53,280 nt of DNA from a virus, in the IMG/VR virus record IMGVR_UViG_3300042549_001343, positions 1 through 53,280 of that record, one strand, 5' to 3'. A model generated the notes under the pieces. It did no database searches, was not told where the DNA came from, and was given only the letters and a program-made list of their open reading frames with translations. Below are positions 1-53,280 of this stretch, piece after piece. Each line of letters opens with the position of its first letter. Position 1 is the stretch's first letter. Position numbers and translations under genes: made by a program.

Positions 1-238
1 TATTTGAGTACAAGTTCCAGCATACCCAGTTGTTTCTATTCCACCAGCGTCACCAAGTTGTAAGCGTATAGTGCTTGACCCATTTGTACTGACGCCATTA
101 AACATGACAGTAATGCGCTTCACCCACGACGGGATAGAAGTAAAGTCAATGCTTGTGCCGGATGTAGATGCCTGCACAGTGCCAGAGGTGAGAACACCTA
201 CACCTGTCGGCGTACCCGCTGTGACTGGGCTGGTCAAT
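1..238. repeat. Terminal redundancy, left copy
   Basis: This copy matches 53043-53280 base for base except at nine positions (127, 130, 136-139, 151, 157, 160). The fibre frame continues through the join, so the contig closes as a circle or has redundant ends. The mismatches are confined to 34 bases, which is unlike random sequencing error. Confidence 0.9.
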
Positions 239-792
239 GTCGGACTGGTCAACGCTACACCGGACACGATATTGGATGAAGACACGCTCCCAGCGGTATT
301 TGGAATTGCATTCAGTACACTGGAGACATAGAAGCTCACTGTGGTGACTGTGTCACCTACCGTACATGCGTTAGCCAAGACAATTGTTGTTCCTGTGGTG
401 GCTGTAAAGTCTGCGGCTGCAAGCCGTGCGCCGTTCCTAAAGACATCTACGTACCCAACGGTGTAGCTTGGTATGGTAAAGCTGGTCTGGCTTGCGGTAG
501 CTGTGGTGTCTGTCACTGTCCTGTACGCAGTTGTGGTCACGCCAGATGCTGGGATGCCAAGGTAACGAACAGAGATGTTGCTTGTCCCGCTAGGCGGAGC
601 GCCCGAGAATGTCAGCGTTGTCCCAGCTACAGAATATGTTGACGGGTCTTGCACCACACCAGTCACAGCCACAAGAATAGATGACGTGTTTGCCGGAGCC
701 ACCGTCATTGTGAAAGCTGTGGCCGAGCCATTCCCGCTGAACGTGTCAGTCAGGAAGGCTACTGAGATTGGTGTGTTGCCGATATAACTCAT
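1..792 (-). CDS. Fibre/appendage protein, N-terminal part (gene split by the contig join)
   Basis: The minus-strand frame starts at ATG 792 (MSYIGNTP...) and is open to base 1, giving 264 codons with no stop. Across the redundant ends it continues in frame at 53042 and stops at 52773, giving a joined protein of about 353 residues. The first ~100 residues (MSYIGN, then FSGNGSATAF) match the N-terminus of the fibre protein at 1996-3147 and are probably the virion-anchoring adaptor. The second half is the IPSWVKRIT-type domain shared with three neighbouring proteins. Its start overlaps the preceding stop (ATGA). The fibre role is inferred from composition, position and paralogy. Confidence 0.8.
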   Translation of the reverse strand, partial: MSYIGNTPISVAFLTDTFSGNGSATAFTMTVAPANTSSILVAVTGVVQDPSTYSVAGTTLTFSGAPPSGTSNISVRYLGIPASGVTTTAYRTVTDTTATASQTSFTIPSYTVGYVDVFRNGARLAAADFTATTGTTIVLANACTVGDTVTTVSFYVSSVLNAIPNTAGSVSSSNIVSGVALTSPTLTSPVTAGTPTGVGVLTSGTVQASTSGTSIDFTSIPSWVKRITVMFNGVSTNGSSTIRLQLGDAGGIETTGYAGTCTQI

Positions 793-1016
793 GGCATGGC
801 TGCTTTGATTTCGTCTACGGTTGAGGCTGCATCAATGGCGGTTTGCATGGCGGCGTACTTGGTTCTGATCGTTGCTCTTGCCGCTTCTGCGCCTTCCGCC
901 TGCCCGGGAATCTGTTTGGCAATGGCCTCGTCGTAGGGTTGGAACTCTACTGATCGCGCTGCGCGGCGCAGATTGTGGGCTACTGCTTTGGCTTTGGTGA
1001 TGTTGATGGTAATCAT
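789..1016 (-). CDS. Small fibre-associated protein, unknown function
   Basis: This is a 75-residue, alanine-rich, probably helical protein (start MITINITKAK). I chose ATG 1016 because it overlaps the upstream stop as ATGA and sits behind a GGGAG ribosome site; an in-frame ATG at 1028 is the alternative. Small helical proteins between fibre genes are often chaperones or fibre-assembly factors, but no family is recognised here. Both ends are translationally coupled to neighbours. Confidence 0.65.
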   Translation of the reverse strand: MITINITKAKAVAHNLRRAARSVEFQPYDEAIAKQIPGQAEGAEAARATIRTKYAAMQTAIDAASTVDEIKAAMP

Positions 1017-1255
1017 GTGTACTCCCATGCTGATCTAAATGTGCGGTCGTGCTTAACAACGCCAAACTCATCAAGCACTGGATTTCCCTGTGTATCAAGC
1101 TCAAGCGGAAAATCAGTAATGTCCACAATCTTGAATGGCTTGCCAGCAGGCACGTCCTTGGCTGCGATCTCTTCAATGGTAAAGCCGCAGTCAGGAGCGG
1201 GAATGAGGACTTTTACGCCGCCATCGTCTGTTGGGTAAATGATTCTTGAGTTCAT
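1013..1255 (-). CDS. Conserved-looking small protein in fibre cluster
   Basis: An 80-residue protein (MNSRIIYPTDDGGVKVLIPAP...) with AGGAG upstream of its ATG. The N-terminal IIYPTDDGGVKVLIPAP stretch suggests a small beta fold, followed by a helix (TIEEIAAKD). It is mildly acidic and has no signal peptide or membrane segment. It overlaps the next gene as ATGA. A tail-fibre accessory role is inferred only from location. Confidence 0.65.
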   Translation of the reverse strand: MNSRIIYPTDDGGVKVLIPAPDCGFTIEEIAAKDVPAGKPFKIVDITDFPLELDTQGNPVLDEFGVVKHDRTFRSAWEYT

Positions 1256-1267
1256 GGTTGCTCCTGA

Positions 1268-1696
1268 TTAGCGGAAGATGGAAGCGAATACATATACCGG
1301 GTCATACTGGTTAGTCGTACTAGTATCTTGCGTTGACATTCTAAAAGATGAAGTAGTTGGCGTATTTCCTGTTGGGATGGAAACTGTTACCCGAGAAGTT
1401 CCGGTAGACCCCATTACCGACATGGACACAGAATAGTTCGCATCAGACATTGCAGTCGTAAAATTAACTGTATACTCACCAACACCTACATCAGTAATAC
1501 TCGACACATTACCACTTCCACGAATAGCCACAGTACCTGTGCCGTTGAAGTTCACCCATGCTCTACACATATAAAGTGGCGCAGTACCAGACACAGTAGC
1601 AATTTGCGCTGAGTTGATGTTTGGTGTTGTCAGTGTTGGGCTGGTTAAGGATATGGGGGCGTCCAAACCTGCTTGACTGATTGTGCTTACTGGCAT
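1268..1696 (-). CDS. Fibre-like structural protein
   Basis: A 142-residue protein (MPVSTISQAGLDAPISLTSP...). It is rich in Ser, Thr, Gly and Asn, with a beta-type second half (RAWVNFNGTGTVAIRGSGNV), as in tail-fibre C-terminal domains. The N-terminal phrase SLTSPTLTTPNINSAQI is a common fibre spacer. ATG 1696 is preferred over an upstream alternative because AAGGAA precedes it and it overlaps the upstream stop as TAATG. It may be a short fibre tip or a detached domain. Confidence 0.7.
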   Translation of the reverse strand: MPVSTISQAGLDAPISLTSPTLTTPNINSAQIATVSGTAPLYMCRAWVNFNGTGTVAIRGSGNVSSITDVGVGEYTVNFTTAMSDANYSVSMSVMGSTGTSRVTVSIPTGNTPTTSSFRMSTQDTSTTNQYDPVYVFASIFR

Positions 1697-1986
1697 TATT
1701 GTTCCTTGGGATACTTTGCTTTGACTGCTTGACAATCAGCAATGTACTTATCAATCTGTGTTTGATCGCCTTTGACTACGCCATCAAGATAGTCTGTAAT
1801 TGGTGGGTATTCGGATGCTCTCTTTTGTGCGTAGGTCAAACTTGCCTCAAGTGCGGCTTGCTCTGCGGCACGAATTAAATTTGCTTCTTCCTCTGTGATT
1901 GCAGTGCATTGAGGCAACCAGACCGCAGGGTCATCATCATTGTCAAGCCAATACAGTTTGTTTTCTGAGTCTTTAAAGTGTGGCAT
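1696..1986 (-). CDS. Fibre assembly-type small protein
   Basis: A 96-residue acidic protein with an N-terminal aromatic segment (ENKLYWLDND), a proline turn, then a long Ala/Glu-rich helix with TDYLDGVVKGD and a helical tail. This layout resembles small phage proteins annotated as tail-fibre assembly or XkdW-like. It has an AAGGA ribosome site and is coupled to the following fibre gene through TAATG, as expected of a dedicated chaperone. Assignment is by resemblance only. Confidence 0.6.
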   Translation of the reverse strand: MPHFKDSENKLYWLDNDDDPAVWLPQCTAITEEEANLIRAAEQAALEASLTYAQKRASEYPPITDYLDGVVKGDQTQIDKYIADCQAVKAKYPKEQ

Positions 1987-1995
1987 TATGTATCC

Positions 1996-3147
1996 TTACC
2001 TAAGTTCTGCCCAATATTGAATCGTAGTACCACTATTGCTGTTTGTGATTGAATAAGTACCGCTTGGAGGAACAATTCCCATATTAGTAACATTATGAGG
2101 AGTAACGAGTGATGCAGTGTAGTAATCATTATCCTTAAATGAAGAAACAATAATGCCATTAATAGTAAGTATTGCTAGATTATTACCAACACCGGAATTT
2201 GAAGTTACTTGCACTTGAATAGGTCTACCAGTAGTATTTGTATAAGTTGTACCAACAGCCCTACTACCAGCTACATTTTGCCAAGTCTGCCCATACCCCA
2301 ATGAACTCATTGCATTTAAAGCCTGACCGCCGCATCCTTGGATCGTTGACGGCGCAGTTGCCCATGTGCCTGCGGTTGCTTGAGTAGATTGAATAAATCC
2401 AATAACACGGTATGCAAGAGATGTTCTAGCTGTGGTGGAATAAACTACGGTTGCGCTGTCCGCACCGCCAGAACCACCTTCAGCAGTGGTAGAAATCAAG
2501 TTAGTTTCATCAAGCTGTGTGCCGCCAGAAATGTTTACCGCCGCCAGTTCAATCGTTCCAGCGTTGTTGAGGGCAATGACCACAATCCGAGAAGCAACTG
2601 CATTTACCGTTCCAAGAGTTGACCCGCTTGAAATAACTAAATTGGCAGGTGTGCCAGAAACTGTAGTAACAGTACCGCTATCAAGAGTGGTGGAGCGGAA
2701 ATTCAACGTCAACGCAGAAGCAGAAATAGTCAACGCATTAGCCGCAACAGAAGCAGAAATTGGCTGTATTTGTGCTGGGATTGGAGGGGCAGACCACGCA
2801 TTGTCGCCACGCAAAAATGTAGAAGAGCTTGGTGTTCCTGTTGCTGACAATTGAGTTAACCCAACCGTACCCTGACCCGGTGCAATCACCTGCGTGATCG
2901 GGCTTGTGTAGTACACATAGATGTTGTTTGTACCACTGGACGGGGCCGAGGTAAACGTGATGGTGTTGCTACTAACCGTGAAGGCATCCGATGGGTTCTG
3001 GGCTACGTTGTTGACAACCGCCTGTACCTGAGCCACAGAAGCCACCGGGCGAGACAATGTAAACGCCGTGGTCGAGGCATTTCCACTGAAATAATCAATG
3101 GCTGGTGTAAACCCTTGCGTGGTGTTAGTGTTGCCTATGTAACTCAT
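1996..3147 (-). CDS. Tail fibre protein
   Basis: A 383-residue protein. Residues 1-95 form the same N-terminal module as the split fibre gene (MSYIGN, FSGNASTTAFTLSRP, an IYVYYTSP strand), probably the adaptor that docks on the virion. Then come LTQLSATGTPSSSTFLRGD, typical of phage fibres, and a Ser/Thr/Gly/Asn-rich beta C-terminus. Its start overlaps the stop of the 3144 gene (ATGA). Two proteins with one adaptor suggest two fibre types or alternative receptor binders. Confidence 0.8.
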   Translation of the reverse strand: MSYIGNTNTTQGFTPAIDYFSGNASTTAFTLSRPVASVAQVQAVVNNVAQNPSDAFTVSSNTITFTSAPSSGTNNIYVYYTSPITQVIAPGQGTVGLTQLSATGTPSSSTFLRGDNAWSAPPIPAQIQPISASVAANALTISASALTLNFRSTTLDSGTVTTVSGTPANLVISSGSTLGTVNAVASRIVVIALNNAGTIELAAVNISGGTQLDETNLISTTAEGGSGGADSATVVYSTTARTSLAYRVIGFIQSTQATAGTWATAPSTIQGCGGQALNAMSSLGYGQTWQNVAGSRAVGTTYTNTTGRPIQVQVTSNSGVGNNLAILTINGIIVSSFKDNDYYTASLVTPHNVTNMGIVPPSGTYSITNSNSGTTIQYWAELR

Positions 3148-3470
3148 GTGATGTTCAGTACAGAAGTGACAACGTCAATTGATGATGCGGTAGAGGAGAC
3201 AACCTTCAACGCATCTCCAGTAATCAGCACAACCTTTTGGTCTCCGCCGACAACAACCAATGCGCCGCCGACAGGAACCGTGGCTCCTTCAACCAAGTAG
3301 TAATCTACCGCAGACCTTGTGAAGTACACGTCGACAGTTACTGGGCTTGTGAGCGTGTTTGCACAGGACATGCCAATGATGGTTGTCTGTGTTGACGCTC
3401 CGATAGTCACGACAGTTGCCGCCGATGTCCCGACAGATTTGTTTGCGTAAGATGTGAATACATTTGCCAT
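3144..3470 (-). CDS. Small virion structural protein
   Basis: A 108-residue, Val/Thr/Ser-rich protein with alternating beta strands (TVDVYFTRSAVDYYLVEGA, then PVGGALVVVGGDQKVVLI). The composition resembles phage head decoration, neck or fibre-base proteins. No catalytic motif is visible. It sits between two fibre genes and is coupled to the downstream one by ATGA overlap. Confidence 0.65.
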   Translation of the reverse strand: MANVFTSYANKSVGTSAATVVTIGASTQTTIIGMSCANTLTSPVTVDVYFTRSAVDYYLVEGATVPVGGALVVVGGDQKVVLITGDALKVVSSTASSIDVVTSVLNIT

Positions 3471-3473
3471 GAT

Positions 3474-4226: not shown

Positions 4227-4238
4227 TTACGACCCCAA

Positions 4239-4685
4239 TCAAGATACGGTGATAGTCCAAGTGATGCTCATTGCATCATCAACACCCTTGTTGACCACAG
4301 AGAACACAGTACGACAGAGCATTGTTCCAGCAGAGGACGCATTGAATATGCCAGCCTCTGTCACTGCGCCTGTACCTGTGCCAGCAGGGAACGATGCTAC
4401 GTAAGTCGCCACGTTGGTAGAGCTTGTTCCGCTGGTCAACGCTGTGCGTGAGGCAGCAATGACAGTTTCAAGGGTTGTGTTACCGACCGCAGCAGCAGTA
4501 GTCCCTGTGCCAAGCTCCATGTGGCTCATCACGTTGCTGGCTGTTCCAACCATACGTGAGGCAATGAATGTCTTGCCAGAGGTGACAACCAAGTTCTTTA
4601 CTTCACGGCTGTCCTTGAGAGAGCCATCAGAACCGAAGACATCGATCTTCAAAGATCCGGTGATTTTTAATGATTCATCAAACAT
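4239..4685 (-). CDS. Virion structural protein
   Basis: A 148-residue protein starting MFDESLKITGSLKIDVFGSD, with strands, a KNLVVTSGKTFIASRM turn and an Ala/Thr/Gly-rich remainder. Such proteins are found among phage appendage genes with a jelly-roll-like composition. No cysteine cluster or enzyme motif is visible. It is one gene in the appendage block and spaced 12 bases from its downstream neighbour. Confidence 0.65.
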   Translation of the reverse strand: MFDESLKITGSLKIDVFGSDGSLKDSREVKNLVVTSGKTFIASRMVGTASNVMSHMELGTGTTAAAVGNTTLETVIAASRTALTSGTSSTNVATYVASFPAGTGTGAVTEAGIFNASSAGTMLCRTVFSVVNKGVDDAMSITWTITVS

Positions 4686-4697
4686 GTTTTTTCCTTG

Positions 4698-6783: not shown

Positions 6784-6788
6784 TTATA

Positions 6789-7100: not shown

Positions 7101-7264
7101 GCGGCCTCTTTGTGGAGTAGGACTGTGATGTCGTCTTGAATAGACACTTCATCATCCGTTGGTTTCTTGGGCTTTGTTTCTTCCAGAACGACCTCGTATC
7201 CCATTTCCAACAGGCTTTCGTCGTACACCACTATCCTGCCCGTGCGTTTGTTTCTCATAAACAT
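7097..7264 (-). CDS. 55-residue paralogue of the GT9 N-terminal domain
   Basis: ATG 7264 has GGGAG upstream and is preferred over a longer frame starting at 7330. Residues 3-32 (MRNKRTGRIVVYDESLLEMG) align with the N-terminus of the neighbouring glycosyltransferase (IRNTQTSKLHAYDRSLLELG), followed in both by a short acidic region. This stand-alone domain overlaps the glycosyltransferase 3' end out of frame by 113 bases. Function unknown. Confidence 0.65.
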   Translation of the reverse strand: MFMRNKRTGRIVVYDESLLEMGYEVVLEETKPKKPTDDEVSIQDDITVLLHKEAA

Positions 7265-8183
7265 GCGATTCTCCCAACTGGAATACGGTCGTTGGCTGAA
7301 TTGACTGCAACGACTCGCAGATTTTGACACATCGCTCGTCCCAGCCTTTATCTCTTTGCCAGTAGCACCCGCTACACGGCATGTCTGATCCTATCCCAAC
7401 AACAGACTCAGAGCAATCAAAGACAAAGTCTTTGGTGGTTGGGCCAAGGACAGCAACTGTCGGCGTGCCAAGCAATCCGCCAATGTGCGCCATGCCACTG
7501 TCGTTGCCGTACATGACGGTGGCGCTGCCGATCAGTTCAAGGATCTCTGAGGCTGGCCGGTTCCAGTAAAGCCGAGATGATGGGATCTTTTCAAGAGACT
7601 CTCGATCTCTACCGGAGCCTATGGCTACGACTACGTACCCTGCATCTGTTAACAGATTAGACAGATCTGTCCATCTGTCGGCGTTCCAAGAACGTACCGA
7701 CCAAACACTTGTAGGTACAAGAACCGCCAGCTTCTCAGCTTTGGTGTACTTGGTTACCTTCTCTGGCCTCTTGGCTACACAATCTGGGATCTCGTAGTAA
7801 CGGCGCAGGTTCTGGACGTACCAGTTTGGCCTTGATCCACCAGACCCTCCGGATCGGAGTTGGCCCTGATAGTCAAGGTTTGCATCTGCAGAGAAATCTG
7901 TCTCTGGGCAAATGCTGACATTGGGGTGCGAAACAACGGAGAGCCAATCAACATGCCTCGTATGAAGCGTGACGTTGAACCCTTGATCTGCTATTCCGCA
8001 AGCCGCATACATTCCACAGACAGCGTCCCCAATCCCCACCGCAGAGACATAGAACGTAACGTCCTTCGTCTGCTTCGGCGGATCTCGTGGATCATCCTCA
8101 TACTCTGCGTAGTATCCAAGCTCAAGCAAAGATCTATCGTAAGCATGAAGTTTGCTGGTTTGTGTGTTGCGTATATAGAGCAT
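7152..8183 (-). CDS. Glycosyltransferase family 9 (heptosyltransferase-like)
   Basis: A 343-residue protein from ATG 8183; a TTG 30 bases upstream lies in the terminator and is rejected. After a ~45-residue N-terminal extension, the GT9 fold shows VSAVGIGDAVCGMYAACG near the start and NDSGMAHIGGLLGTPTVAV, the nucleotide-sugar and acceptor signature of ADP-heptose LPS heptosyltransferases, followed by LGPT. The last ~38 residues are Arg/Gly/Gln-rich and overprint the next gene, so they are probably not part of the ancestral fold. A role in modifying virion or host surface glycans is inferred. Confidence 0.75.
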   Translation of the reverse strand: MLYIRNTQTSKLHAYDRSLLELGYYAEYEDDPRDPPKQTKDVTFYVSAVGIGDAVCGMYAACGIADQGFNVTLHTRHVDWLSVVSHPNVSICPETDFSADANLDYQGQLRSGGSGGSRPNWYVQNLRRYYEIPDCVAKRPEKVTKYTKAEKLAVLVPTSVWSVRSWNADRWTDLSNLLTDAGYVVVAIGSGRDRESLEKIPSSRLYWNRPASEILELIGSATVMYGNDSGMAHIGGLLGTPTVAVLGPTTKDFVFDCSESVVGIGSDMPCSGCYWQRDKGWDERCVKICESLQSIQPTTVFQLGESHVYEKQTHGQDSGVRRKPVGNGIRGRSGRNKAQETNG

Positions 8184-11582: not shown

Positions 11583-11800
11583 TTTCCGGCCTTCATGCAC
11601 TTGCCCATAGCAGCGCACTTCTTGGGGGCTGGGCAACCGGCGCATGGCTTGAATGCCTTGCCGCCATCCGCCATCTTCATGCTTTTGGCTGAAGCCATCA
11701 TCATTTTCTTGGGGGCTTTTTTGGCTGCGTCTTTCATAACTTTGCCGCCATCTTTGTAGCCTGCGGGGATCATTCCTTTTTTGGCAGTTTTGTTCATCAT
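11579..11800 (-). CDS. Basic Met/Lys-rich protein with cysteine cluster
   Basis: A 73-residue protein, strongly basic (KKGMIPAGYKDGGKV; AKKAPKKMMMASAKSMKMADG), ending in CAGCPAPKKCAAMGKC, four cysteines able to bind one metal ion. It lies between portal and head genes and overlaps the portal stop by 4 bases. The DGGK/ADGGK phrases recall the FADGG tags in other virion proteins here. DNA or metal binding inferred, not shown. Confidence 0.6.
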   Translation of the reverse strand: MMNKTAKKGMIPAGYKDGGKVMKDAAKKAPKKMMMASAKSMKMADGGKAFKPCAGCPAPKKCAAMGKCMKAGK

Positions 11801-13821
11801 GCTGATACTCCTTGTTGAGGTTGAACGGTATTCATAGCAGGAGGCGCTTGGTCTCCGGCTGGGTTTGTTGCTTCGGGTGCTGCAATCTGTTGTTGTGGCA
11901 TTGTGGCTTGTAGTTGCTGCATTGCCATTTCGATCTGTTCTTTTTTGAACTTCATCATCTCTGTCGACGGAACCAATCTGTCGGTGTCCATCTGGAGACC
12001 CATTGCAGTTTCCCGCAACAGATAAGCAGCACCTTCAGGCCCAACGATTTGCAGGGCGATCTGGTTGCTCAAGACCAAGTTCAAGAACTCGTTGCGACGG
12101 ACTTGGATCTGCTCTTTGGCGATCAAGCCCATTGCTCCCTTAGCTACAACCTTGAAGTCACCCTTGATGAAAGGGTCTGGGTTGTAGATCATGTTGTGAA
12201 CGTAGAAGCGGGTGACCACCATCGTGACCACGTCGTCAATGGTTCCGACAGATGTCTTGATTCCCTTGGCGGCATTGTCCATCAGCATGGATAAACCAGA
12301 AGCTGTTCGGCCAGCACCACTTGCACCAGAGCCAGAGCCGTAGATGTAGTTAGGGATACCCGTTACTTCGTCCGCTTGTTTGGCAAACTGGTTGTAGATG
12401 CCCATCAGTTCAGCGGCCTTCATGTCAGGCATGAAGAAGCGAACCCCGGGCTGACCACCACCTGTCTTGTCGGATGTGGTTTGCCAGATCTTCCAAGGAT
12501 ACATCTGGGTAACGTCTTCGCCGTCGGCCAATCTGTCCACGGCCACTTCAACCTGTGGGCCAGATCCGATGCCCATGTTGTTCGCCAAAGAACGTGCGGC
12601 CGCATTGCACATGATCTGCACATCGCGCATGTTCTCGGGGAGGGCTGTGCCCCAGAATGCACCGGGGATAGATCTCCATGAGGCGATCTCGTATGGACGC
12701 TCGCCCAGTGGATCTGGGTTGATGACGGCCTTGATGGTGAAGCTGGCAACTTGCCAAGCATTGATTTCGTAGACCTTGTTGGGATCTATGTCCTTCATTC
12801 CCCACTGGATCAGGAGATCTCCCATCACTGGCCCCCAGAACTCCAATGCTTCGATCAGGTGATCGTTGTGCATTTGAGAATTGGTCTTGCCTTCTAGGTC
12901 ATCTCTCTGTTGGTCGCCGTACTCGTTGTATCGGTAGCCAGCTTTTCCGTAGCGGATAAGGACTTGGTCGATCTCGTCGTCGGAGTATCCGGGTATACCC
13001 TTCATGGATTCCAAGGTAGAGGCCGACAGGCGGTGTCTCTGGATCAGGAAGCCGTCATCCACGCCCATTGAGTTGGCGCTTGGGAAGATGTCGTAAGGGG
13101 AAACCCGAGATACCTCACGAACCATGTCTGTTACGACGATGGGCGTGAAGTCTGGCCCCCACTGGAGATTCTTCTTGCGGCGAACGCTTGGCCCCTTGAG
13201 GATAGCGGTCGGGAAGGTGACGAAGTCGTCGATGAAGTCCTGCATGGCAGGTTTGAACTTACCCTTGTCCAGTTGGTCTTGGATGACCTTGGACATTCTT
13301 TCTGCTGTGGCCTTGGCTTCTTCCTTGACTCGCAAAGAAATCATGTCTTGCACTTCGGCCAGACGCTTGCGGAATGTCTCTGGGTGGAGTTGCTGACCGG
13401 CCATCACGTAGTCTTCAGCTTCTGTGCGGACTAGGTCGATGATGGACATGCGAACTTCTGGCGGGATCTGTGGTTCTTGTGAGGGAACGAGATCGAAAGG
13501 ACGGTCTGCTTGAAGCATCACGTCCTGAATCCAAGACTTGGCAGCGGCGCACTTCACGTCTGTCAGCATCATGTAGATGTCTGAGCCACCAGTGTTGGAG
13601 ATGTCGATGGCTTTATCAGGATCGTATTCACCACGGCGCTGGCGCTCACACTTGAGCAGTCGCTCAGTGATGTCCTGCTTTGCCATCTTTGCTTGAGTCC
13701 AGCAGGAATTGATGTGCCCAGAGATGCCCATTGCGATCAGGTCGGAGTTATCCACGCCTTGTGCTTGGACGGCGCTGATGTCTGCTTCGACTGGCGCTGC
13801 TGCCTGATACACCTGTGTCAT
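11797..13821 (-). CDS. Portal protein
   Basis: A 674-residue protein close to the size of P22-type portals. It has DKAIDISNTGGSDIYMMLTDV near the N-terminus, a helical stem region (RLAEVQDMISLRVKEEAKA), and IMCNAAARSLANNMGIGSGP with GIPNYIYGSGSGASGAGRTA, the signature of podoviral portals. Twelve copies form the DNA entry ring to which terminase docks. It follows terL by 10 bases and precedes head genes, the standard order. Confidence 0.85.
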   Translation of the reverse strand: MTQVYQAAAPVEADISAVQAQGVDNSDLIAMGISGHINSCWTQAKMAKQDITERLLKCERQRRGEYDPDKAIDISNTGGSDIYMMLTDVKCAAAKSWIQDVMLQADRPFDLVPSQEPQIPPEVRMSIIDLVRTEAEDYVMAGQQLHPETFRKRLAEVQDMISLRVKEEAKATAERMSKVIQDQLDKGKFKPAMQDFIDDFVTFPTAILKGPSVRRKKNLQWGPDFTPIVVTDMVREVSRVSPYDIFPSANSMGVDDGFLIQRHRLSASTLESMKGIPGYSDDEIDQVLIRYGKAGYRYNEYGDQQRDDLEGKTNSQMHNDHLIEALEFWGPVMGDLLIQWGMKDIDPNKVYEINAWQVASFTIKAVINPDPLGERPYEIASWRSIPGAFWGTALPENMRDVQIMCNAAARSLANNMGIGSGPQVEVAVDRLADGEDVTQMYPWKIWQTTSDKTGGGQPGVRFFMPDMKAAELMGIYNQFAKQADEVTGIPNYIYGSGSGASGAGRTASGLSMLMDNAAKGIKTSVGTIDDVVTMVVTRFYVHNMIYNPDPFIKGDFKVVAKGAMGLIAKEQIQVRRNEFLNLVLSNQIALQIVGPEGAAYLLRETAMGLQMDTDRLVPSTEMMKFKKEQIEMAMQQLQATMPQQQIAAPEATNPAGDQAPPAMNTVQPQQGVSA

Positions 13822-13831: not shown

Positions 13832-15268
13832 TCATGTCCATGCTTTGCTGGACGCTTTTTTAACTGGTCGTGCCCTCACCTCTACTCTGCCGCTTCGTGC
13901 TGCTAAACAGAGGTACTGGAGTGCATCGTGGGGATGGCTGTATTTGTCTTTGACTGGTCTGTCGCGGTATCTTTCACCAGCAACCTTGAGTCGTTCGTAC
14001 CTGAACCCGCCGAGGAAACCTTTGCGTAGTTGTCGGCAGTTCGGTGAGAGAAGGAACCCCGCTTCTCCCCCAGCCAACTTGTTGAGGAAGTACGCAACAG
14101 ATTCTCTGCGTGGTATGAAATCATTTGTGCTTGCTGGCTCGCTTGCAATTCCGGCCTCTAGTAGTTCTTGGTAGCAGGTTCTCTCATCTGCTTGAGATCT
14201 GTGTGTACCGGCTGGGTCGCCAGCGGAGATGAACCTCATTCCTGAGTAGGTTGTCATCAGGGCTGGTTTCACAATCTCCTGAGCAAACTGTCTGATGCCC
14301 ATGTCTTCGGCCACGAATTCTTCAAGGATGACAAGCTGTCCTCTTGAAGTTATCTGTCCAACAATGCAAGCAGGTGTGAGTCCGAAGTCCCATCCGAGGT
14401 AGAGAGGCAGTCCTCTATTGACTTCAAGCTCTTCTTCGGCGGTGTGGATTCTGTCGTTGTATTCTGGGTAGACCGGCTTGCCATCGGCGGTTGTTCCGTA
14501 CTGGCCGAGGACGAAGACTTTGATCCAGTCGTCCGTCTTGCCTTTGACCATCTTCAGGTAATACTCATACCCTTGAGGAAGATTGAACACATTCTCCGCT
14601 TCTGAATTCGGCTCATACCGGACATCATCGCCCTCTTGGATACGAAGGAGACCACCCGGTTGGTTAAAGAATTCCCATCCTTCGGGGGTGTCTTCTTCTG
14701 CAATTTTGTAATACCAGTGATCGTCGTCAGGCGGGTTGGTATCAAGGATAACGCATGGATGTACGGGGCCGCCGCCGTGAGTCTTCGCGGGGTAACGACC
14801 GATACGCTGAGTGACCATGTTGAAGACTTCATGCGGAACCTCTGAGGCTTCATTGATCCAAGCTCCAGTAAGTTCGAGGGATCTCAGCTTTCCGGTTTCG
14901 GATGCCTTGTCCAGCGCGATGAAGATAACTTCCAAGTCCAGCCCGTTGCCGTCTCCACAATCTTTGATCTTCATGTGGGCGGTGATTGGGGCATCCCACT
15001 TGATCGGGGCAAGTTCATCATTGAACCATGTTTGCCAAGTCTTGATCGTGGTGGACTTGAGTTCGGGATAGGTATTCCGAATGACCGCCCATCTTGCTTT
15101 TCTCCAGCCATTGTGGGGAGTTTGCTTGAGGGAGTGCTTGACGATCTCCATACAACAGGTTGAGGATTTTCCAGAACCTACTGGCCCTTTGATTCCTCGG
15201 ACATCAGCCATTGAGTTGTGGAACTCAGCGGCCACTTGTCCCGGCGGGTTGTATTGGATGACGGTCAT
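13832..15268 (-). CDS. terL: Terminase large subunit
   Basis: A 478-residue packaging motor. The ATPase domain has Walker A GPVGSGKSS (residues 28-36), a Walker B-like LELTGAWINEASE, and a downstream IGRYPAK arginine region. The nuclease domain has YLGWDFGLTPACIVGQ (first acidic residue), SAGDPAG, and the late KYSHPHDALQYL. It cleaves concatemers and pumps DNA through the portal. Coupled by ATGA to the small subunit gene. Confidence 0.9.
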   Translation of the reverse strand: MTVIQYNPPGQVAAEFHNSMADVRGIKGPVGSGKSSTCCMEIVKHSLKQTPHNGWRKARWAVIRNTYPELKSTTIKTWQTWFNDELAPIKWDAPITAHMKIKDCGDGNGLDLEVIFIALDKASETGKLRSLELTGAWINEASEVPHEVFNMVTQRIGRYPAKTHGGGPVHPCVILDTNPPDDDHWYYKIAEEDTPEGWEFFNQPGGLLRIQEGDDVRYEPNSEAENVFNLPQGYEYYLKMVKGKTDDWIKVFVLGQYGTTADGKPVYPEYNDRIHTAEEELEVNRGLPLYLGWDFGLTPACIVGQITSRGQLVILEEFVAEDMGIRQFAQEIVKPALMTTYSGMRFISAGDPAGTHRSQADERTCYQELLEAGIASEPASTNDFIPRRESVAYFLNKLAGGEAGFLLSPNCRQLRKGFLGGFRYERLKVAGERYRDRPVKDKYSHPHDALQYLCLAARSGRVEVRARPVKKASSKAWT

Positions 15269-16078: not shown

Positions 16079-16436
16079 TCCCTCTGGGACAGAGATCGAC
16101 AGATTTATAGGCTCAGAGACCAATTAAACGGTGATTTAGCCCTCTTTAGAGGGATAGGGGTGCATTGTGTGGTGGATTGATCGGGGTAAATGTACGTATT
16201 TCCTACGGAAACGTGCGTGATTTACTGAAACTTACTTTTTCCCTACCCAAAATCTCAATCATTTCAATGCCTTGCATAATGCACGTGTTGACTATCCCTG
16301 CCTATTTATCCCCTATATGAACTCCTATTGGAGTCGTGTATGGGACGCTGTGCCAAAGGCTTTTCCGGCTCAACCTTCGATTCAACCCCAAAACAACACC
16401 TATTTTCAACTTTTTTACGTAGTAATAGGGGTCGAA
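16079..16436. promoter_or_regulatory. Control region upstream of early operon
   Basis: No convincing gene. It contains hairpins CCCTC-TTTA-GAGGG (16140-16153), TTTCC-TAC-GGAAA (16199-16211) and ACTCC-TATT-GGAGT (16321-16334), plus a TGCATAATGCA palindrome at 16273. TTGACT at 16288 with TATATG at 16314 is a weak promoter candidate because the spacing (20) is too long. This is where plus-strand early transcription probably begins. Confidence 0.4.
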
Positions 16437-16538
16437 ATGAAAAAAAGACTTGACACAGCATCAACTTTCTGGTCAACTTCAAATCGTCAATTCGGCAACA
16501 AACCGAAAGCAGACTCAGTAAGTGCTAAAGCACCGTAG
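16437..16538 (+). CDS. 33-residue basic leader-type peptide
   Basis: ATG 16437 follows AGGGGTCGAA, a fair ribosome site. The peptide (MKKRLDTASTFWSTSNRQFG, then NKPKADSVSAKAP) is basic and soluble. The frame is open further upstream (another ATG at 16317) but without a ribosome site. It lies ahead of the hairpin-rich segment and AAA+ gene, where a leader peptide could serve regulation. Confidence 0.45.
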   Translation: MKKRLDTASTFWSTSNRQFGNKPKADSVSAKAP

Positions 16539-16917
16539 GACAGATAGGCTGTGACCCTTCGTAGAAGGGAGTAAGCAAAATCCTTCGGTGACGCTCCGAA
16601 CAAGTCTCTTGACCCCAACGGCGGGATGTAGCGTCGGACTCCGGAGGAGTTGTAACACGGTGGGAACCGTCAACAACACAGCACCGAAGGGTTGGACTAA
16701 GGCTTTGCCTTACTTCTAGAGGCCTCGACTTCATGCAGGTAGCTTCCCTTAAGGAAGAGGTTGCATCGAGCATCGAGATAAACACAGACTTTAGTCTGTC
16801 AACACTCACAGAGTTTCAACGGTATGGCAGTCTCTGACTGCTATGCACTGGACGCTCTGTCCTGTCTTTAGAGGCTCTGCCTCTATTTCGCAACTCACCG
16901 CATTCGAAAGGAATCCC
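16539..16917 (+). other. Hairpin-rich leader of the early operon (possible structured RNA)
   Basis: Seven perfect short hairpins in ~330 bases: CCCTTC/GAAGGG at 16555, ACTCC/GGAGT at 16638, ACGGT/ACCGT at 16657, TAAGGC/GCCTTA at 16698, ACAGAC/GTCTGT at 16784, GCAGTC/GACTGC at 16827, and AGAGGC/GCCTCT at 16870. Loops are 3 or 4 bases, mostly TCT, TTT or TTTA. None has a T-run. It looks like a folded 5' leader. Confidence 0.55.
16733..16837 (+). CDS. Possible 34-residue peptide in leader
   Basis: ATG 16733 to TGA 16837 encodes MQVASLKEEVASSIEINTDF followed by SLSTLTEFQRYGSL, protein-like and acidic. GAGG lies about ten bases upstream. It overlaps two hairpins of the leader. Size and weak ribosome site make it uncertain. 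Confidence 0.3.
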   Translation: MQVASLKEEVASSIEINTDFSLSTLTEFQRYGSL

Positions 16918-18069: not shown

Positions 18070-18070
18070 A

Positions 18071-18946: not shown

Positions 18947-18953
18947 CGGAGTG

Positions 18954-18969
18954 GCAGGGGAAACCCTGC
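18954..18969 (+). other. GAAA-tetraloop hairpin after the vWA gene
   Basis: GCAGGG-GAAA-CCCTGC, a perfect 6-bp stem with a GNRA loop, eight bases after the vWA stop. No T-run follows, so it is more likely an RNA 3' stabiliser or processing element than a terminator. It lies in the 90-base gap before the next gene. Confidence 0.6.
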
Positions 18970-19036
18970 TCTTCTAAGTGTGCATTCAACCGAGTGCATA
19001 CCTAGAAGCATCCCGCTTCACATGAAAGGAACACAC

Positions 19037-19297: not shown

Positions 19298-19306
19298 GGA
19301 GCGAAT

Positions 19307-21339: not shown

Positions 21340-21350
21340 AAGGAAATCAC

Positions 21351-21704: not shown

Positions 21705-21727
21705 ACAAATTCACAGGAGAAAACACA

Positions 21728-48006: not shown

Positions 48007-48015
48007 TTTATTTTC

Positions 48016-48567
48016 CTATACAAACCATGTCACCATAGAATACCGCGTACCTGACAGAACCGGCAAAATTTCATGCGGGAACATAAAATTAGAAGGAAAC
48101 AAAATAGCCGCCCCTTTTGGTAATCTTATGGTCGTGTTGCGGTCAAAAAAAGCAAACTCCCCGCCTTCGTATCCGTCGTTAAGAGCGAATGAACAAGAAA
48201 TACAACGAGCGTGTTTTTCGTAAGAATCTGTGTGCTGGGCGTAAAACTGCCCTGTTTCGTAACGAAGTAGTTGATACCCGGTATCTCCTCTAATTTGAGC
48301 TTTGGGGTAAATCTCTAAATATTTTTGTAGCGCAGACCCCGCCGCTCTAAATAGCATTGCATCAAGCTGCGCTCTGATTTCTGTATTTTTGTTTATTATT
48401 TCTTTGGACAAAAAAATAGCCGAAGCAGATCGAATATTTTTGTTGACCACATCGTTATCGACAACTGTGTCTACCCATTCACCTGAGCCACTGAACTCAT
48501 TGAGCAAAGCATCGCACAAATCCAATGGGACAGTGTTTTCAAAAACTTTAATGTAGTCTTGAATCAT
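48016..48567 (-). CDS. 2-oxoglutarate/Fe(II) oxygenase (P4H-type) 1
   Basis: A 183-residue protein with GYQLLRYETGQFYAQHTDSY (HxD) and later SNFMFPHEILPV (distal His), then GTRYSMVTWF (2OG-binding Arg), the complete prolyl-4-hydroxylase-like site. Phage members usually hydroxylate proteins or modify nucleobases or glycans; substrate unknown. It is followed by the AUU-start gene. Confidence 0.8.
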   Translation of the reverse strand: MIQDYIKVFENTVPLDLCDALLNEFSGSGEWVDTVVDNDVVNKNIRSASAIFLSKEIINKNTEIRAQLDAMLFRAAGSALQKYLEIYPKAQIRGDTGYQLLRYETGQFYAQHTDSYEKHARCISCSFALNDGYEGGEFAFFDRNTTIRLPKGAAILFPSNFMFPHEILPVLSGTRYSMVTWFV

Positions 48568-48576
48568 CTGCTACCC

Positions 48577-49179
48577 CTACGGACGTTCTTTGTAGTTGAG
48601 AAACTGTGTCAAGGTCTTGCGATATTTGCCCTCTTGTGATTGGACAGGCTCCACCTCATGCAGGACGCATCCGGGGAAAATAACTGTTTTATTTCTGACT
48701 GGCAATATGCGCACGCCAAATTCCGGAAATACAAGGTCGCCCCCAGTAAACTCATCTTCGCCAATAAACGTAACAATCGTAAAAGGCGTGCCATCATAGT
48801 GGCCCAAATAGCCTTCATTGTTTGCATACACATTCAGCAATGTTGTACGCCTATTTGTGTTTTTAAGGTGCATGTAGTTTGCTGAAGTCTTTTTGAGTTC
48901 ATCGACAATTTCTGGGATGGACGTCTTTGTGACCAGACGAAGTATCCCGGCGTTTTGCCACTCTGGGCTGTAATAATTATTTAAAAGCAGCCCCCGCCCT
49001 GTCTTCAAGATTCTTTCATCCTGTGTTTTTGCACTGAATGTTTCCTCAGGGTATTGCAACACACCCAAGTTGATTATGTGATTTACCTCATTTTCAATTT
49101 CTTCCAGTTCCTCAGGAAGAAATAAATCGTCAACGATGGCGTAATCAAGCGCCTCAACTCTGTGGGCAGTTACTTGCAT
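48577..49179 (-). CDS. 2-oxoglutarate/Fe(II) oxygenase (P4H-type) 2
   Basis: A 200-residue protein from ATG 49179 (AAAGGACTGC upstream). NNEGYLGHYDGTPFTIVTFI carries HxD, CVLHEVEP the distal His, and GKYRKTLTQF the Arg. It is not a close copy of the neighbouring oxygenase. Two different oxygenases beside fibre genes suggest modification of virion or host-surface components. Confidence 0.8.
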   Translation of the reverse strand: MQVTAHRVEALDYAIVDDLFLPEELEEIENEVNHIINLGVLQYPEETFSAKTQDERILKTGRGLLLNNYYSPEWQNAGILRLVTKTSIPEIVDELKKTSANYMHLKNTNRRTTLLNVYANNEGYLGHYDGTPFTIVTFIGEDEFTGGDLVFPEFGVRILPVRNKTVIFPGCVLHEVEPVQSQEGKYRKTLTQFLNYKERP

Positions 49180-49180
49180 G

Positions 49181-50098
49181 TTAAGCAGTCCTTTTCCACA
49201 TATACACAGTGATATATGGCTGGTAGTTAGCATTTGTGCCACTTGAACCAGCAGAGTCAATTATTGTTGTAATATTTGCTGTTGATGTGCCTACATTTAC
49301 ATTTGTTTGAGACGGTATTCCAATACCGGGTTGGCCTCCTCCCGCGCTATATTGAAAAAATCCGCCAATATTTCCGTCTTGTACGTGGGTATGCCCTGAA
49401 TCCGTAGAAGTTGCTGTGTGAGTGTGGCTAACAGTAATTGCATCTGCACTACCGCCTTCTTCTCCAACAGTGTCAAACAGTGCATTGCTTGAGTCAAAGC
49501 CAACCATGACCTTACCAGCCGCAAATGCAGTCCATGTGCCAAAACCAAGCAATGTTGCAGGGTTAGTACTAACAGAAGCATTTGTGTAGATAGATCCAAC
49601 TGGATACGAGGCTGCTAATGCCGCTTGTACAAATGCAGTAGATGCGGCAGATGTATCACTGTCACCAAATGTTTGAGTTGGAACAGCTAGAGTCCCAGAG
49701 ACTGTTGCCGCTCCAGAAATTGTGACAGTACTGCTAAATGTATTTGCCCCAGAGAACGTATTTGCTCCGGAGAACGTATTGTCCTTGTCTTGACCAGCAA
49801 AGTTATTCAACCCAGCCGCAGTAACTCGCAAAGAAATATTATCCCCGCCGGTAAAAGATCTACCTGTCGTACCCTCTTGTGCGCGAACAACTGTTAAAGA
49901 ATCTGTCGATCTAGCAGTTACTTTAATAATCTCAATGTTGTTGCTGGAGTCAATGATGGTGGCGTAAAAGTAGTCACCTGATGACAGAGTGGGGAACAGA
50001 GCGCCCTGACCAGAAGCAACAGTTACGGTTGTGGCCGTACTGTTGATTGAGGCAGATAGCGCGGCTACGGCGTTGTTGGTAAATTTCTGTTGAGCCAT
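49181..50098 (-). CDS. Tail fibre protein with collar-like C-terminus
   Basis: A 305-residue protein. It has a repeated FSGANTFSGANTF spacer and SDTSAASTAFVQAALAASYP, then PVGSIYTNASVSTNPATLLG and a His-rich HTHTATSTDSGHTH, ending in YQPYITVYMWKRTA. That ending is seen in phage collar-type fibre tips whose HxH sites bind metal ions (as in T4 gp12/gp10). Likely receptor binding. Confidence 0.75.
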   Translation of the reverse strand: MAQQKFTNNAVAALSASINSTATTVTVASGQGALFPTLSSGDYFYATIIDSSNNIEIIKVTARSTDSLTVVRAQEGTTGRSFTGGDNISLRVTAAGLNNFAGQDKDNTFSGANTFSGANTFSSTVTISGAATVSGTLAVPTQTFGDSDTSAASTAFVQAALAASYPVGSIYTNASVSTNPATLLGFGTWTAFAAGKVMVGFDSSNALFDTVGEEGGSADAITVSHTHTATSTDSGHTHVQDGNIGGFFQYSAGGGQPGIGIPSQTNVNVGTSTANITTIIDSAGSSGTNANYQPYITVYMWKRTA

Positions 50099-50100
50099 TA

Positions 50101-50277
50101 TTACTCTCCTTGTGGGGGATTATCTGCGGGTTCAGGGGTTTGTGCCGCTTCTGCCAAGGCCTGAGCCTCGGCCGCCTGAGCCGCTACTGCCGCATCATGG
50201 GCCGCCTGTTCTTCAGGTGTGTATTCAACAATTGAGGTCACGCCTGTCTCTACATTAACTACGATTCTGTGTGTCAT
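50101..50277 (-). CDS. 58-residue Ala/Glu/Pro-rich fibre-associated protein
   Basis: ATG 50277 to TAA 50101. The protein (RIVVNVETGVTSIVEYTPEE then an Ala/Gln helix and a Pro-rich end) resembles small fibre-assembly proteins. It is followed by the fibre gene within a few bases. Its first ribosome site is not obvious, so coupling to the upstream gene is likely. Confidence 0.55.
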   Translation of the reverse strand: MTHRIVVNVETGVTSIVEYTPEEQAAHDAAVAAQAAEAQALAEAAQTPEPADNPPQGE

Positions 50278-50280
50278 GGT

Positions 50281-50805
50281 TTAGCCTTCATAAAGAATGT
50301 TGATTGAGCCAGCGTCAAAGGTGTCTGTGCCGTTGACTGTAGTGATGCGTACCATATTTAAAACACCAGCTAAAGTAACAGAGCTACCTACAACACCTAT
50401 GTAGTTGTTGCCAGAATAGCCTAGTGAACCAGAAAGAGCCCACACATTTGACCCAAGATGAACGCAAGTAACCACTCCGTTCATGGTTGCGCCTGGTTGA
50501 GTTAAAAGTGCTGCTCCGGTTGTATATTGAGTGACACTTGTGCTACTTACTGAATCAGCAACGCCACCACTACCAAGATAGCCTGATGTTGTAGGGCTAC
50601 CACCAGTACCAAGTCTAAATTGTATTGCCGATCCTGTCGTGCTAACACGGTTTAGTGCAATCGTTATACGCTTAACCCAAGACGGTATCCCAGTAAAGTC
50701 AATGCTTGTACCTGATGTAGAGGCAACAGCAGTGCCAGAGGTAATCCCCAGTACCGCACCTGAGTTGATCGTGACGCTTGCTGATCCATCAATAATTACG
50801 CTCAT
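50281..50805 (-). CDS. Fibre paralogue A
   Basis: A 174-residue protein from ATG 50805, overlapping the upstream stop as ATGA (ATG 50811 is an alternative). After a short N-terminus (MSVIIDGSASVTINSGAVLG) comes the array's shared domain: TSIDFTGIPSWVKRI at one end and VRITTVNGTDTFDAGSINIL at the other. Probably a trimeric beta-rich receptor-binding domain. Confidence 0.7.
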   Translation of the reverse strand: MSVIIDGSASVTINSGAVLGITSGTAVASTSGTSIDFTGIPSWVKRITIALNRVSTTGSAIQFRLGTGGSPTTSGYLGSGGVADSVSSTSVTQYTTGAALLTQPGATMNGVVTCVHLGSNVWALSGSLGYSGNNYIGVVGSSVTLAGVLNMVRITTVNGTDTFDAGSINILYEG

Positions 50806-51428
50806 GCCCATGCCCCTACTGAAGTGTTAGAACCAGATGCGCTAACTGGTGCAATGCGGATGTAGCTACCAATGGCAGTGGAGTAAGCCCCTCCGGGGGC
50901 GGCTGACAGCGCGTACTGCGGAATGAATGTACCGCCAGCGTTGATTGATACTGTTCCTTTAATAACAAATGAAATAAATAAGTTTGCAGAAGTTTGTGCA
51001 CCAGTTATCACAGTGTTACTTGCAGTTTGAATAAACATCTGGTAGTCTGCTGTTGCTACAACAGTAAAGCTAGTGCCGCTGGGATTTTGAACATTCAACC
51101 TGTACCCAATATTATCTACTGATGCCGTGCCCCCAAACCCCACCCCAAAAGTGTGCGATGTTGTTCCAGTAGATTTGCTTACAGCAACAATCATTTCAAA
51201 CTCATACACAGTGCTTGCTGACAGTGTGACACCAACACCAAATATGCTTTGTGCTGTGTTTACATTTGATCCAACAAGCGCAGAATTCAGTCTGTAATAC
51301 TGTTGAGTCGGCACAATGCCTCGCTGTGTGCCGATAGGTGTGCCGGTAAAGATCGGGCTGGAATACTCAATGTTACCAGCGGCTGCTGTGCCAATCAACG
51401 TTTCAGAGGTTAAAACAATTGCTGACAT
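50802..51428 (-). CDS. Fibre protein within the array
   Basis: A 208-residue beta-rich Ser/Thr/Gly protein (SAIVLTSETLIGTAAAGNIE; TPIGTQRGIVPTQQYYRLNS). It lacks the IPSWVKRI box of its neighbours, so it represents a different fold in the array. The composition is typical of phage fibres. ATGA-coupled to paralogue A. Confidence 0.65.
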   Translation of the reverse strand: MSAIVLTSETLIGTAAAGNIEYSSPIFTGTPIGTQRGIVPTQQYYRLNSALVGSNVNTAQSIFGVGVTLSASTVYEFEMIVAVSKSTGTTSHTFGVGFGGTASVDNIGYRLNVQNPSGTSFTVVATADYQMFIQTASNTVITGAQTSANLFISFVIKGTVSINAGGTFIPQYALSAAPGGAYSTAIGSYIRIAPVSASGSNTSVGAWA

Positions 51429-51430
51429 GA

Positions 51431-52018
51431 TTATCCTTCGAGTAAGAGGTTTATAGTGCCAGCAGATGGAGTAGTGTCAAAGGTGTCAGTGCCGTTGACT
51501 GTAGTGATGCGGACTCGGTCAAGAACACCACCAAGCGTTATATCTCCAGCACCAATGCAAGATATATTTGTCGTATTTCTAAAAGAACTACTAGAAACCC
51601 ATGTATTTCCAGAAATTAATGTCAAAACCATATGCCCACTAGTTGCAGATGCCGCTTGATTTGAATTTAAGAAAAATCCAGATGTTGCGCTGGATGTCGA
51701 TAAAGTTGAAGCACCCAATGAGGTGGAATTGGAGGCGTACCCAGAATTAGATACAGAACCAGAGCCTATTTGCACTTGAGGCAAAGAAGTCCCGCTTGTA
51801 CTCACCCCACTAAACATGACCGTCACACGTTTCACCCATGAGGGGATGGAATTGAAATCAATAGAAGTTTGCCCCGCACAAGTTACCGCTGTTGCCAATG
51901 TATTGACAGAATTTGTTGCAGTAGCAGCAAGCAAAGTCAGCGTGTTTGTACCCGCAACAGCAGGGGCATTGACCACAAGCTGCCCTGATGTATCTCCTGC
52001 TAAAGCAAATCCAGCCAT
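51431..52018 (-). CDS. Fibre paralogue B
   Basis: A 195-residue protein. An extra N-terminal ~45 residues (AGDTSGQLVVNAPAVAGTN) give a fibre-type linker; then the shared domain with FNSIPSWVKRVTVMF and VRITTVNGTDTFD. More diverged from paralogue A than C and D are from each other. Confidence 0.7.
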   Translation of the reverse strand: MAGFALAGDTSGQLVVNAPAVAGTNTLTLLAATATNSVNTLATAVTCAGQTSIDFNSIPSWVKRVTVMFSGVSTSGTSLPQVQIGSGSVSNSGYASNSTSLGASTLSTSSATSGFFLNSNQAASATSGHMVLTLISGNTWVSSSSFRNTTNISCIGAGDITLGGVLDRVRITTVNGTDTFDTTPSAGTINLLLEG

Positions 52019-52027
52019 CTTGATTCC

Positions 52028-52237
52028 TTAAAGAACAACCCAGCGTGATCCCGCTGGAATGGTTACTGTGACACCGGCATTCAATGTGATCGGCCCGACA
52101 GACATGGCACATGCCCCTGATGTGATGGTATAGCTGACAGTCACCACCTTGGTGTTTTCGTAGATCGGCACTGACGGGTTGAACGCTTGTCCACTGCCGT
52201 CACCCACCATTGAAGAAGCTACTTTAGTTAATGCCAT
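52028..52237 (-). CDS. Small fibre-array protein
   Basis: A 69-residue protein with beta-rich composition (VVTVSYTITSGACAMSVGPI; AGVTVTIPAGSRWVVL). It may be a cap or trimerisation unit for a neighbour. It lies between paralogues B and C with short gaps, and has no recognised motif. Confidence 0.5.
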   Translation of the reverse strand: MALTKVASSMVGDGSGQAFNPSVPIYENTKVVTVSYTITSGACAMSVGPITLNAGVTVTIPAGSRWVVL

Positions 52238-52242
52238 AATGT

Positions 52243-52767
52243 TTACTCATAGAGAATGTTGATTGAACCAGCGTCAAAGGTGTCAGTTCCATTTACGGTG
52301 GTGATGCGGAGTTGAGTAAGGGTGTCGGAGAGGGTTTTTGTGCCAGAGCCAAAACCACCTCTTGCAGTTGTATCGTTAATATTACCCGCACCAACCCAAA
52401 TATTACTACCTAGTGTTGTGAATACATACATACCGCTAGAACTCTGAGTGGCTATAGCTACAGTGGAAACTAAAAATCCCGCAGTTCCATTTGATGTTAC
52501 TGGGGTAGCATTTGTTATATAAGACATTAAAGAGTTATAGCCAGTTGTTTCTATACCCCCAGAATCCCCTAATTGAACTTGTAAAAAAGATGTGCCGCTT
52601 GTACTTACCCCATTAAACATGACAGTAATGCGCTTCACCCAAGATGGGATGCCTGTAAAGTCAATACTTGTTCCAGATGTAGACGCTTGTACAGTACCAC
52701 TAGTAATTAACGATCCACCTGAGTTTGCATTTGAGCCTATTGCGGCTAGATTAACTGCTTTTGTCAT
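52243..52767 (-). CDS. Fibre paralogue C
   Basis: A 174-residue protein of the array's domain (SIDFTGIPSWVKRITVMFNG; LRITTVNGTDTFDAGSINIL). It is the closest paralogue to the split fibre gene: 74 bases (52610-52683) are identical to 53137-53210. This is the likely donor of the patch that separates the two contig-end copies. Confidence 0.7.
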   Translation of the reverse strand: MTKAVNLAAIGSNANSGGSLITSGTVQASTSGTSIDFTGIPSWVKRITVMFNGVSTSGTSFLQVQLGDSGGIETTGYNSLMSYITNATPVTSNGTAGFLVSTVAIATQSSSGMYVFTTLGSNIWVGAGNINDTTARGGFGSGTKTLSDTLTQLRITTVNGTDTFDAGSINILYE

Positions 52768-52772
52768 GTTGT

Positions 52773-53280
52773 TTACTCATATAAAATGTTAATTGAACCA
52801 GCATCGAATGTGTCAGTGCCGTTTACTGTGGTAATGCGGACTTGGGTAAGCGTGTCGGATAGAGTTTTTGTACCGCAAAACAAATACTGAAAAGCAGAGC
52901 CAATGTTATACGCACCTAACAAAGCCCATGTATTTGACCCCAATAAAGAAAATACAACCTGACCATTTCTTGTTTGGGTTGAAGAAGTGTCGCCTGTACT
53001 GTCAAAACCAGAAGTTGAATAAAGGGTAGAAACTGTCGAGCCTATTTGAGTACAAGTTCCAGCATACCCAGTTGTTTCTATTCCACCAGCGTCACCAAGT
53101 TGTAAGCGTATAGTGCTTGACCCATTTGTACTGACGCCATTAAACATGACAGTAATGCGCTTCACCCAAGATGGGATGCCTGTAAAGTCAATACTTGTTC
53201 CAGATGTAGATGCCTGCACAGTGCCAGAGGTGAGAACACCTACACCTGTCGGCGTACCCGCTGTGACTGGGCTGGTCAAT
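52773..53280 (-). CDS. Fibre paralogue D, C-terminal part of the split fibre gene
   Basis: The frame enters at the right end of the contig and stops at 52773. It is the continuation of the gene at 1-792 and holds the shared domain (GIPSWVKRITVMFNG; IGSTVSTLYSTSGFDSTGD; VRITTVNGTDTFDAGSINIL). The last ~90 codons (52773-53042) lie beyond the redundant 238 bases. The in-window GTG near 53279 is not a true start. Confidence 0.75.
   Translation of the reverse strand, partial: LTSPVTAGTPTGVGVLTSGTVQASTSGTSIDFTGIPSWVKRITVMFNGVSTNGSSTIRLQLGDAGGIETTGYAGTCTQIGSTVSTLYSTSGFDSTGDTSSTQTRNGQVVFSLLGSNTWALLGAYNIGSAFQYLFCGTKTLSDTLTQVRITTVNGTDTFDAGSINILYE
53043..53280. repeat. Terminal redundancy, right copy
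   Basis: Matches bases 1-238 with nine mismatches clustered at 127-160 of the left copy. At all nine positions this right copy agrees with the paralogue at 52610-52683, so it looks like either recombination between paralogues or a mixed assembly. Confidence 0.9.

Follow-up and report, generated by a model that had tools for sequence, protein, structure and literature searches.

RACAGAT, a dense genome-wide heptamer in a clade of tailed phages: evidence for a function at the DNA level

The viral DNA record IMGVR_UViG_3300042549_001343 was analysed over its whole length of 53,280 nt, referred to here as the window. It belongs to a tailed phage, with an SU10/HMO-2011-type portal (11797-13821) and a terminase (13832-15268), and it carries the heptamer RACAGAT at 111 sites distributed over positions 1-53280 on both strands (58 on + and 53 on -; ~2.1 per kb), of which 60 read GACAGAT. 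A first-pass annotation had suggested that the shorter word GACAGAT serves a function at the level of the DNA. For RACAGAT, such a function, independent of the direction of transcription, is strongly supported, because the enrichment exceeds a null that preserves codons, copies occur on both strands and in noncoding DNA, related phages use dialects of the word, and the sites are under purifying selection. We tentatively propose, at slightly less than an even chance, that RACAGAT may mark genome-wide sites for a sequence-specific double-stranded DNA-binding factor, probably encoded by the phage, with cooperation between near neighbours.

About 57 copies of GACAGAT/ATCTGTC, roughly nine times the chance number, had been reported initially. 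The count held: 60 copies (28 on + and 32 on -) were found against 6.6 expected from base composition, and every example coordinate listed by the annotation lay within 0-9 bases of a true copy. ATCTGTC was the most frequent heptamer of the window, and ACAGAT (121 copies) and GACAGA (115) were its two top-ranking hexamers. The base 5' of ACAGAT was G in 60 cases, A in 51, C in 9 and T in 1, so that the enriched word is wider than GACAGAT and is better written RACAGAT; a slight preference for T was seen on its 3' side and flanks further away were without signal. The 111 copies of RACAGAT compare with 13 expected from base composition (8.3-fold) and 17.9 from dinucleotide shuffles (6-fold). GACAGAT averaged 9.0 copies in 100 dinucleotide shuffles, with a maximum of 16, and none of the 100 reached 60. 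Markov models of second, third and fifth order gave 12.8, 17.9 and 52.7 copies of GACAGAT, respectively, the third-order value being the background against which the annotation had proposed to check its count, and a fourth-order model gave 82 copies of ACAGAT against the 121 counted. The fifth-order value would favour a compositional or coding artefact without function, but it is no test of one, because the model is trained on ACAGAT and GACAGA, which are themselves enriched. High-order Markov models were rejected as a null for this circularity, the word itself being part of the training counts.

The coding null was obtained by permuting synonymous codons genome-wide, which left all proteins and the codon usage unchanged. 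Within genes, 98 copies of RACAGAT were present against 22 expected from these shuffles, and the excess was found in sense (61 against 14.5) as well as in antisense orientation (37 against 7.3). For GACAGAT, 38 sense copies (7.5 expected), 13 antisense copies (3.3 expected) and 9 copies beyond called genes were counted, in agreement with the earlier statement that the heptamer occurs on both strands, in all frames and in noncoding DNA. RACAGAT likewise used every reading frame; antisense frame 0 was scarce because it would require Ile-Cys, a rare pair. A further 13 copies of RACAGAT lay beyond called genes, at a density comparable to that within genes. The control word YACAGAT was not above its codon-shuffle expectation. 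When the counts were pooled over the window's clade, AACAGAT and GACAGAT reached 4.4 and 5.0 times the codon-shuffle expectation, while nearly all single-base variants stayed at 0.5-1.6 times, the exceptions being AACAGAA and AACAGAG at ~2.0 times. Sense and antisense copies were both enriched over the codon-shuffle null in all relatives tested. Codon usage as the cause of the enrichment is ruled out by the shuffles. Next to no credence is left for an artefact, which the codon-shuffle null, the presence on both strands, the background level of the single-base variants and the conservation of sites exclude. The balance of the strand counts (58 and 53) speaks against the idea that the word is a packaging or orientation signal.

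Relatives were collected by a portal scan of IMG/VR, which returned 79 loci, and enrichment was judged on loci of at least 7 kb. Loci with a portal at least 71% identical to that of the window were 4- to 13-fold enriched in RACAGAT at a GC content of 48-61%, with L032 (1.8-fold; two copies in 7.9 kb) as the sole exception. The check in related phages that the annotation had suggested thus shows the enrichment to be common to this clade. At lower portal identity the single locus at 67% was 3.5-fold enriched, loci at 64% ranged from 1.0 to 2.4, and those at or below 54% were near 1. Counted over whole contigs, RACAGAT occurred 125 times in G001, 128 times in G002 and 10 times in G014. None of the named relatives HMO-2011, CRP-3, HTVC104P, PBC5, Itty13 and phiM6 showed an enrichment comparable to that of the window.

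An unbiased codon-shuffle scan of every 6- and 7-mer, performed per genome, returned GACAGAT and AACAGAT as top words in the window, G001 and G002, and CAACAGA, AACAGAT and AACAGAC in G008, G009, G010, G012 and G013. Two dialects thus exist: the window's clade uses RACAGAT and a sister clade AACAGAY, with a sharp step between them in the per-genome counts. In the window's clade the first base is A or G and the last preferably T; in the sister clade the first base is preferably A and the last T or C, with weaker A or G. L070, with a portal 64% identical, contained 13 copies of AACAGAC against 1.3 expected. In G014 the form RACAAAC was seen, many copies of which lay in a repeated leader, GGAGACAAAC(C)ATG, that precedes many early genes (L093-L095, contig ~15600-21330) as a repeated ribosome-binding context. 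RACAAAC was not counted as a proven third dialect because it is partly due to this repeated GGAGACAAAC-ATG leader.

Selection on individual sites was assessed by aligning the window to G001 and G002 (DNA 79% identical), with letter-permuted words as controls. In these alignments 61-62% of the window sites were intact, compared with 31-33% of the controls, and sites that had lost exactly one position were three-fold too rare (9-11% against ~30%). Between G001 and G002, 91% of the sites and 66% of the controls were intact. Within the sister clade, site positions were conserved no better than controls and the density was maintained. Comparison of the two clades likewise showed turnover of positions at a maintained density. 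On a short time scale, individual sites are under purifying selection; on a long time scale it is the density that is kept, not the position.

The sites were also found in close pairs. Taking each homologous pair once and using spacings of 26-64 bp as background, 31 independent pairs were found at 8-12 bp against 7.3 expected for both clades together; the window's clade contributed 10 of them (2.8 expected) and the sister clade 21 (4.5 expected). A further rise occurred at 18-22 bp. One-mismatch copies in the same orientation followed this pattern in both clades, with a 1.9- to 2.1-fold excess at 8-12 bp, a dip at 13-17 bp and a 1.7-fold excess at 18-22 bp. Close pairs came in every orientation, opposite included. 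A spacing of about one helical turn fits proteins bound on one face of the helix.

The proposed factor would read RACAGAT as double-stranded DNA and occupy many scattered 7-bp sites, and sites about one helical turn apart would be bound with cooperation. It would probably be encoded by the phage, and its purpose might be to organise, silence or protect the whole phage genome. It is possible, though doubtful, that the lineage tags its own genome with ~100 7-bp words read by a small DNA-binding protein of its own, which would amount to a dialected self-address code. The best candidate reader, as yet unproven, is an excisionase-like HTH_17/MerR-type protein of 72 aa (31650-31868, + strand; Pfam E 2e-10), put forward for its conservation and for the DNA-binding style of its family. 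It was the only recognised helix-turn-helix protein common to all eight motif-bearing genomes, and it was retained in the window's clade despite the lack of any detected integrase or CI repressor. In the recognition-helix region, the proteins of the window's clade have ETARQW, and those of the sister clade have ETARRW or ETVRRW. All loci of at least 8 kb with an HTH_17 homolog at E 7e-9 or better carried the word, and remoter homologs in other phages occurred without it; this association is not independent evidence, because all such loci share phage backbone genes. Among related proteins of the excisionase type, Apl binds cooperatively to 6-bp operators arranged as direct repeats 10-11 bp apart (PMC7498355), and BldC assembles head to tail into multimers on repeats of 9 bp (PMC5859096).

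Several points weigh against a phage-encoded, cooperatively binding reader. The reader might be encoded by the host, and the presence of the HTH_17 protein is confounded with that of the entire phage backbone. A motif array at the integrase-side att region of the temperate relatives, to be expected if the HTH_17 protein read the word in its role as an excisionase, was absent in G010, G012 and G013, and the att region of G008 and G009 held single sites only. Short tandem duplications could partly account for the pairs in the same orientation.

Links of the motif to other phage functions were considered and rejected, since integrase, CI operators, CHC2 primase, type of single-strand annealing protein (SSAP) and helicase lineage each dissociate from it. 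The sister clade is temperate, with a tyrosine integrase directly 3' of the HTH_17 gene and a CI-type repressor in G008, G009, G010 and G012 (G013 gave a weak partial match only). The window, G001 and G002 carry the word, but no integrase was detected in them and no homolog of the G009 CI was found. A CHC2 primase-type zinc finger was found only in G009, G010 and G013; it was not detected in the window, G001, G002, G008 and G012, in which the motif is equally present. SSAP genes vary among the motif-bearing genomes (Sak in G013), and the helicase of G008 is 76% identical to that of the window, yet G008 carries the other dialect.

The main rival explanation, although unlikely, is a recombination signal, as also raised by the annotation: the word would be a Chi-like sequence that attenuates the RecBCD or AddAB of the host, gathered by the phage to survive the nuclease and to recruit recombination, and the dialects would mirror different hosts. 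The word suits this role as an asymmetric 7-mer present on both strands, and the phage has a YqaJ exonuclease, with no Gam or Abc2 noticed among the subset of proteins scanned. In lambdoid phages with a recombinase and without a RecBCD inhibitor, Chi is over-represented with a median observed/expected ratio of 2.5 (PMC3784561). Chi occurs at 0.2 per kb in E. coli and its phages (PMC3784561), a density ten times below that of the phage word, and none of the ~400 sampled bacterial genomes came near the phage density. Among 150 Burkholderiales and 249 Pseudomonadota genomes, which perhaps do not include the host, the word reached at most ~0.54 per kb, compared with 2.1 in the phage. Densities were used for this comparison because the control pattern includes TAG and would have been unfair; two bacterial genomes with high word counts showed no clear enrichment when compared with the codon null. 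A Chi-like role also leaves the pairing at one helical turn unaccounted for.

Primase recognition, another suggestion of the annotation, is improbable. Under this explanation the sites would be start sites for a primase or for lagging strands, read on the template strand as ATCTGTY, which includes GTY (T7/T4-primase-like) and CTG (DnaG-like). The sites are balanced between the strands, and their spacing of about 1 kb on each strand is close to the usual Okazaki spacing; known primase sites, however, are 3-5 nt long. No primase was recognised in the window, the CHC2 finger occurs in only part of the motif-bearing genomes, and the similar helicases of G008 and the window go with different dialects. 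A modification mark, the methylation site of the annotation, is very improbable. In this case an enzyme of phage or host would methylate or hypermodify the adenine-rich word, with sites accumulated for protection, and some modification systems typically use asymmetric 7-mers with a single modified adenine. No DNA methyltransferase was recognised among the proteins of the subset of window open reading frames (ORFs) that was scanned; the sole methyltransferase (32211-32837) resembles enzymes acting on small molecules and is restricted to the window's clade. Sites linked to restriction are, moreover, usually lost rather than gained by phages. Operators of a lysogeny repressor, like the stoperators of Cluster A mycobacteriophages, are quite improbable. 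Relatives are temperate (integrase, CI), and stoperators are likewise dispersed, asymmetric and divided into dialects; against this, the genomes with most sites (the window, G001 and G002) had no detected CI, the sites are not aligned with transcription, and there are 111 of them compared with at most 30 stoperators (PMC6550527). The word fails the defining features of stoperators that were tested, namely orientation with transcription and a cognate immunity repressor.

Attempts to place the host gave distant matches. A portal scan of genome contigs returned only relatives that were 39-44% identical, and the best Pseudomonadota match to the tRNA-Ser gene of temperate relatives was 86%. This tRNA-Ser(TGA) lies next to the integrase of two temperate relatives (L163:11304-11393 and L159:11299-11388), with identical sequences, and is a likely attachment site from which the host could be identified.

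Along the window, the densest cluster (7644-7679) was a partly palindromic group of five motif copies spanning 36 bp within a Glyco_transf_9 ORF (7152-8183); it was identical in G001, and G002 had a five-copy cluster that was arranged differently. The densest region (16098-22222) covered an early rightward operon with a cobS-like gene and small genes, and in most genomes the top-density stretch lay in the homologous operon, 3-9 kb past the terminase start. Two deserts were found at the left end (1-3431; one copy, at 910) and the right end (49908-53280; zero copies), with 1 RACAGAT in total against ~14 expected, and they are probably continuous if the genome is circularly permuted. The annotation had described them as fibre genes that were likely newly acquired. 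The deserts are real, and recent acquisition is likely because nearly all of their genes are without homologs among ten relatives, but the fibre annotation nearby is weak (Gp10_C at 49181-50098; Gp80-like at 4239-4685, beyond the desert). Two neighbouring 2OG-Fe(II) oxygenase-like ORFs (48016-49260) adjoin the right-hand desert.

Replication and recombination genes of the window included a DnaB-like helicase without a primase part (26143-27090, - strand), a DUF1376 primosomal or replication initiation protein (28158-28832, - strand), a member of a PHROG 'exonuclease' family that may resemble Rad52-like annealing proteins (29106-29882, + strand), the YqaJ-like recombination exonuclease (30112-30732, + strand) and a single-strand DNA-binding protein (30735-31127, + strand). 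An LPD38 protein of 2650 aa was encoded at 32834-40786. Other enriched words were observed elsewhere: ACAGCTG/CAGCTGT in G017 (L105-L107; portal 51%; 40 against 10.2), and AGGTAAC/GTTACCT in Rhizobium phage RHph_TM3_14A (L112), with 28 copies where codon shuffles predict 4.6. The host of this isolate is known, and the heptamer is perhaps another phage-wide word.

A limited literature search returned no report of a virulent-looking phage with a word as dense as about two sites per kb, and no precedent for an enriched phage heptamer was found. Dense words with dialects are established in bacteria for recombination (Chi) and for DNA uptake; those known for mycobacteriophage repressors are sparse. 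The word provides a handle on how a phage may distinguish or organise its own DNA, and an experimentally accessible target.

Compared with known systems, RACAGAT may be regarded as a dense genome-wide recognition word akin to the dialect-bearing address words, Chi and uptake sequences. Like Chi, it is a short, asymmetric word over-represented at the DNA level in phages that carry genes for recombination (PMC3784561); it differs in being about ten times denser, in the lack of enrichment in the sampled bacteria, in having two dialects within one clade and in its pairs at one helical turn. With the stoperators of Cluster A phages it shares many dispersed asymmetric sites and dialects among related phages, but stoperators are 13 bp long, number at most 30 per genome and are oriented with transcription (PMC6550527), whereas the phage word is 7 bp long, occurs 111 times, is unoriented and mostly intragenic, and is present without CI. 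The DNA uptake sequences of Neisseriaceae are likewise short, genome-wide and divided into clade-specific dialects, but they are bacterial and linked to transformation, a route that a virulent phage does not have. Winged helix-turn-helix arrays of the excisionase and BldC type consist of short asymmetric operators in cooperative direct repeats one helical turn apart (PMC7498355, PMC5859096). The phage word shows this direct-repeat spacing (8-12 and 18-22 bp), although its pairs occur in all orientations; those arrays are few and local, whereas the phage word occupies ~100 sites genome-wide and forms no array at the att regions of relatives.

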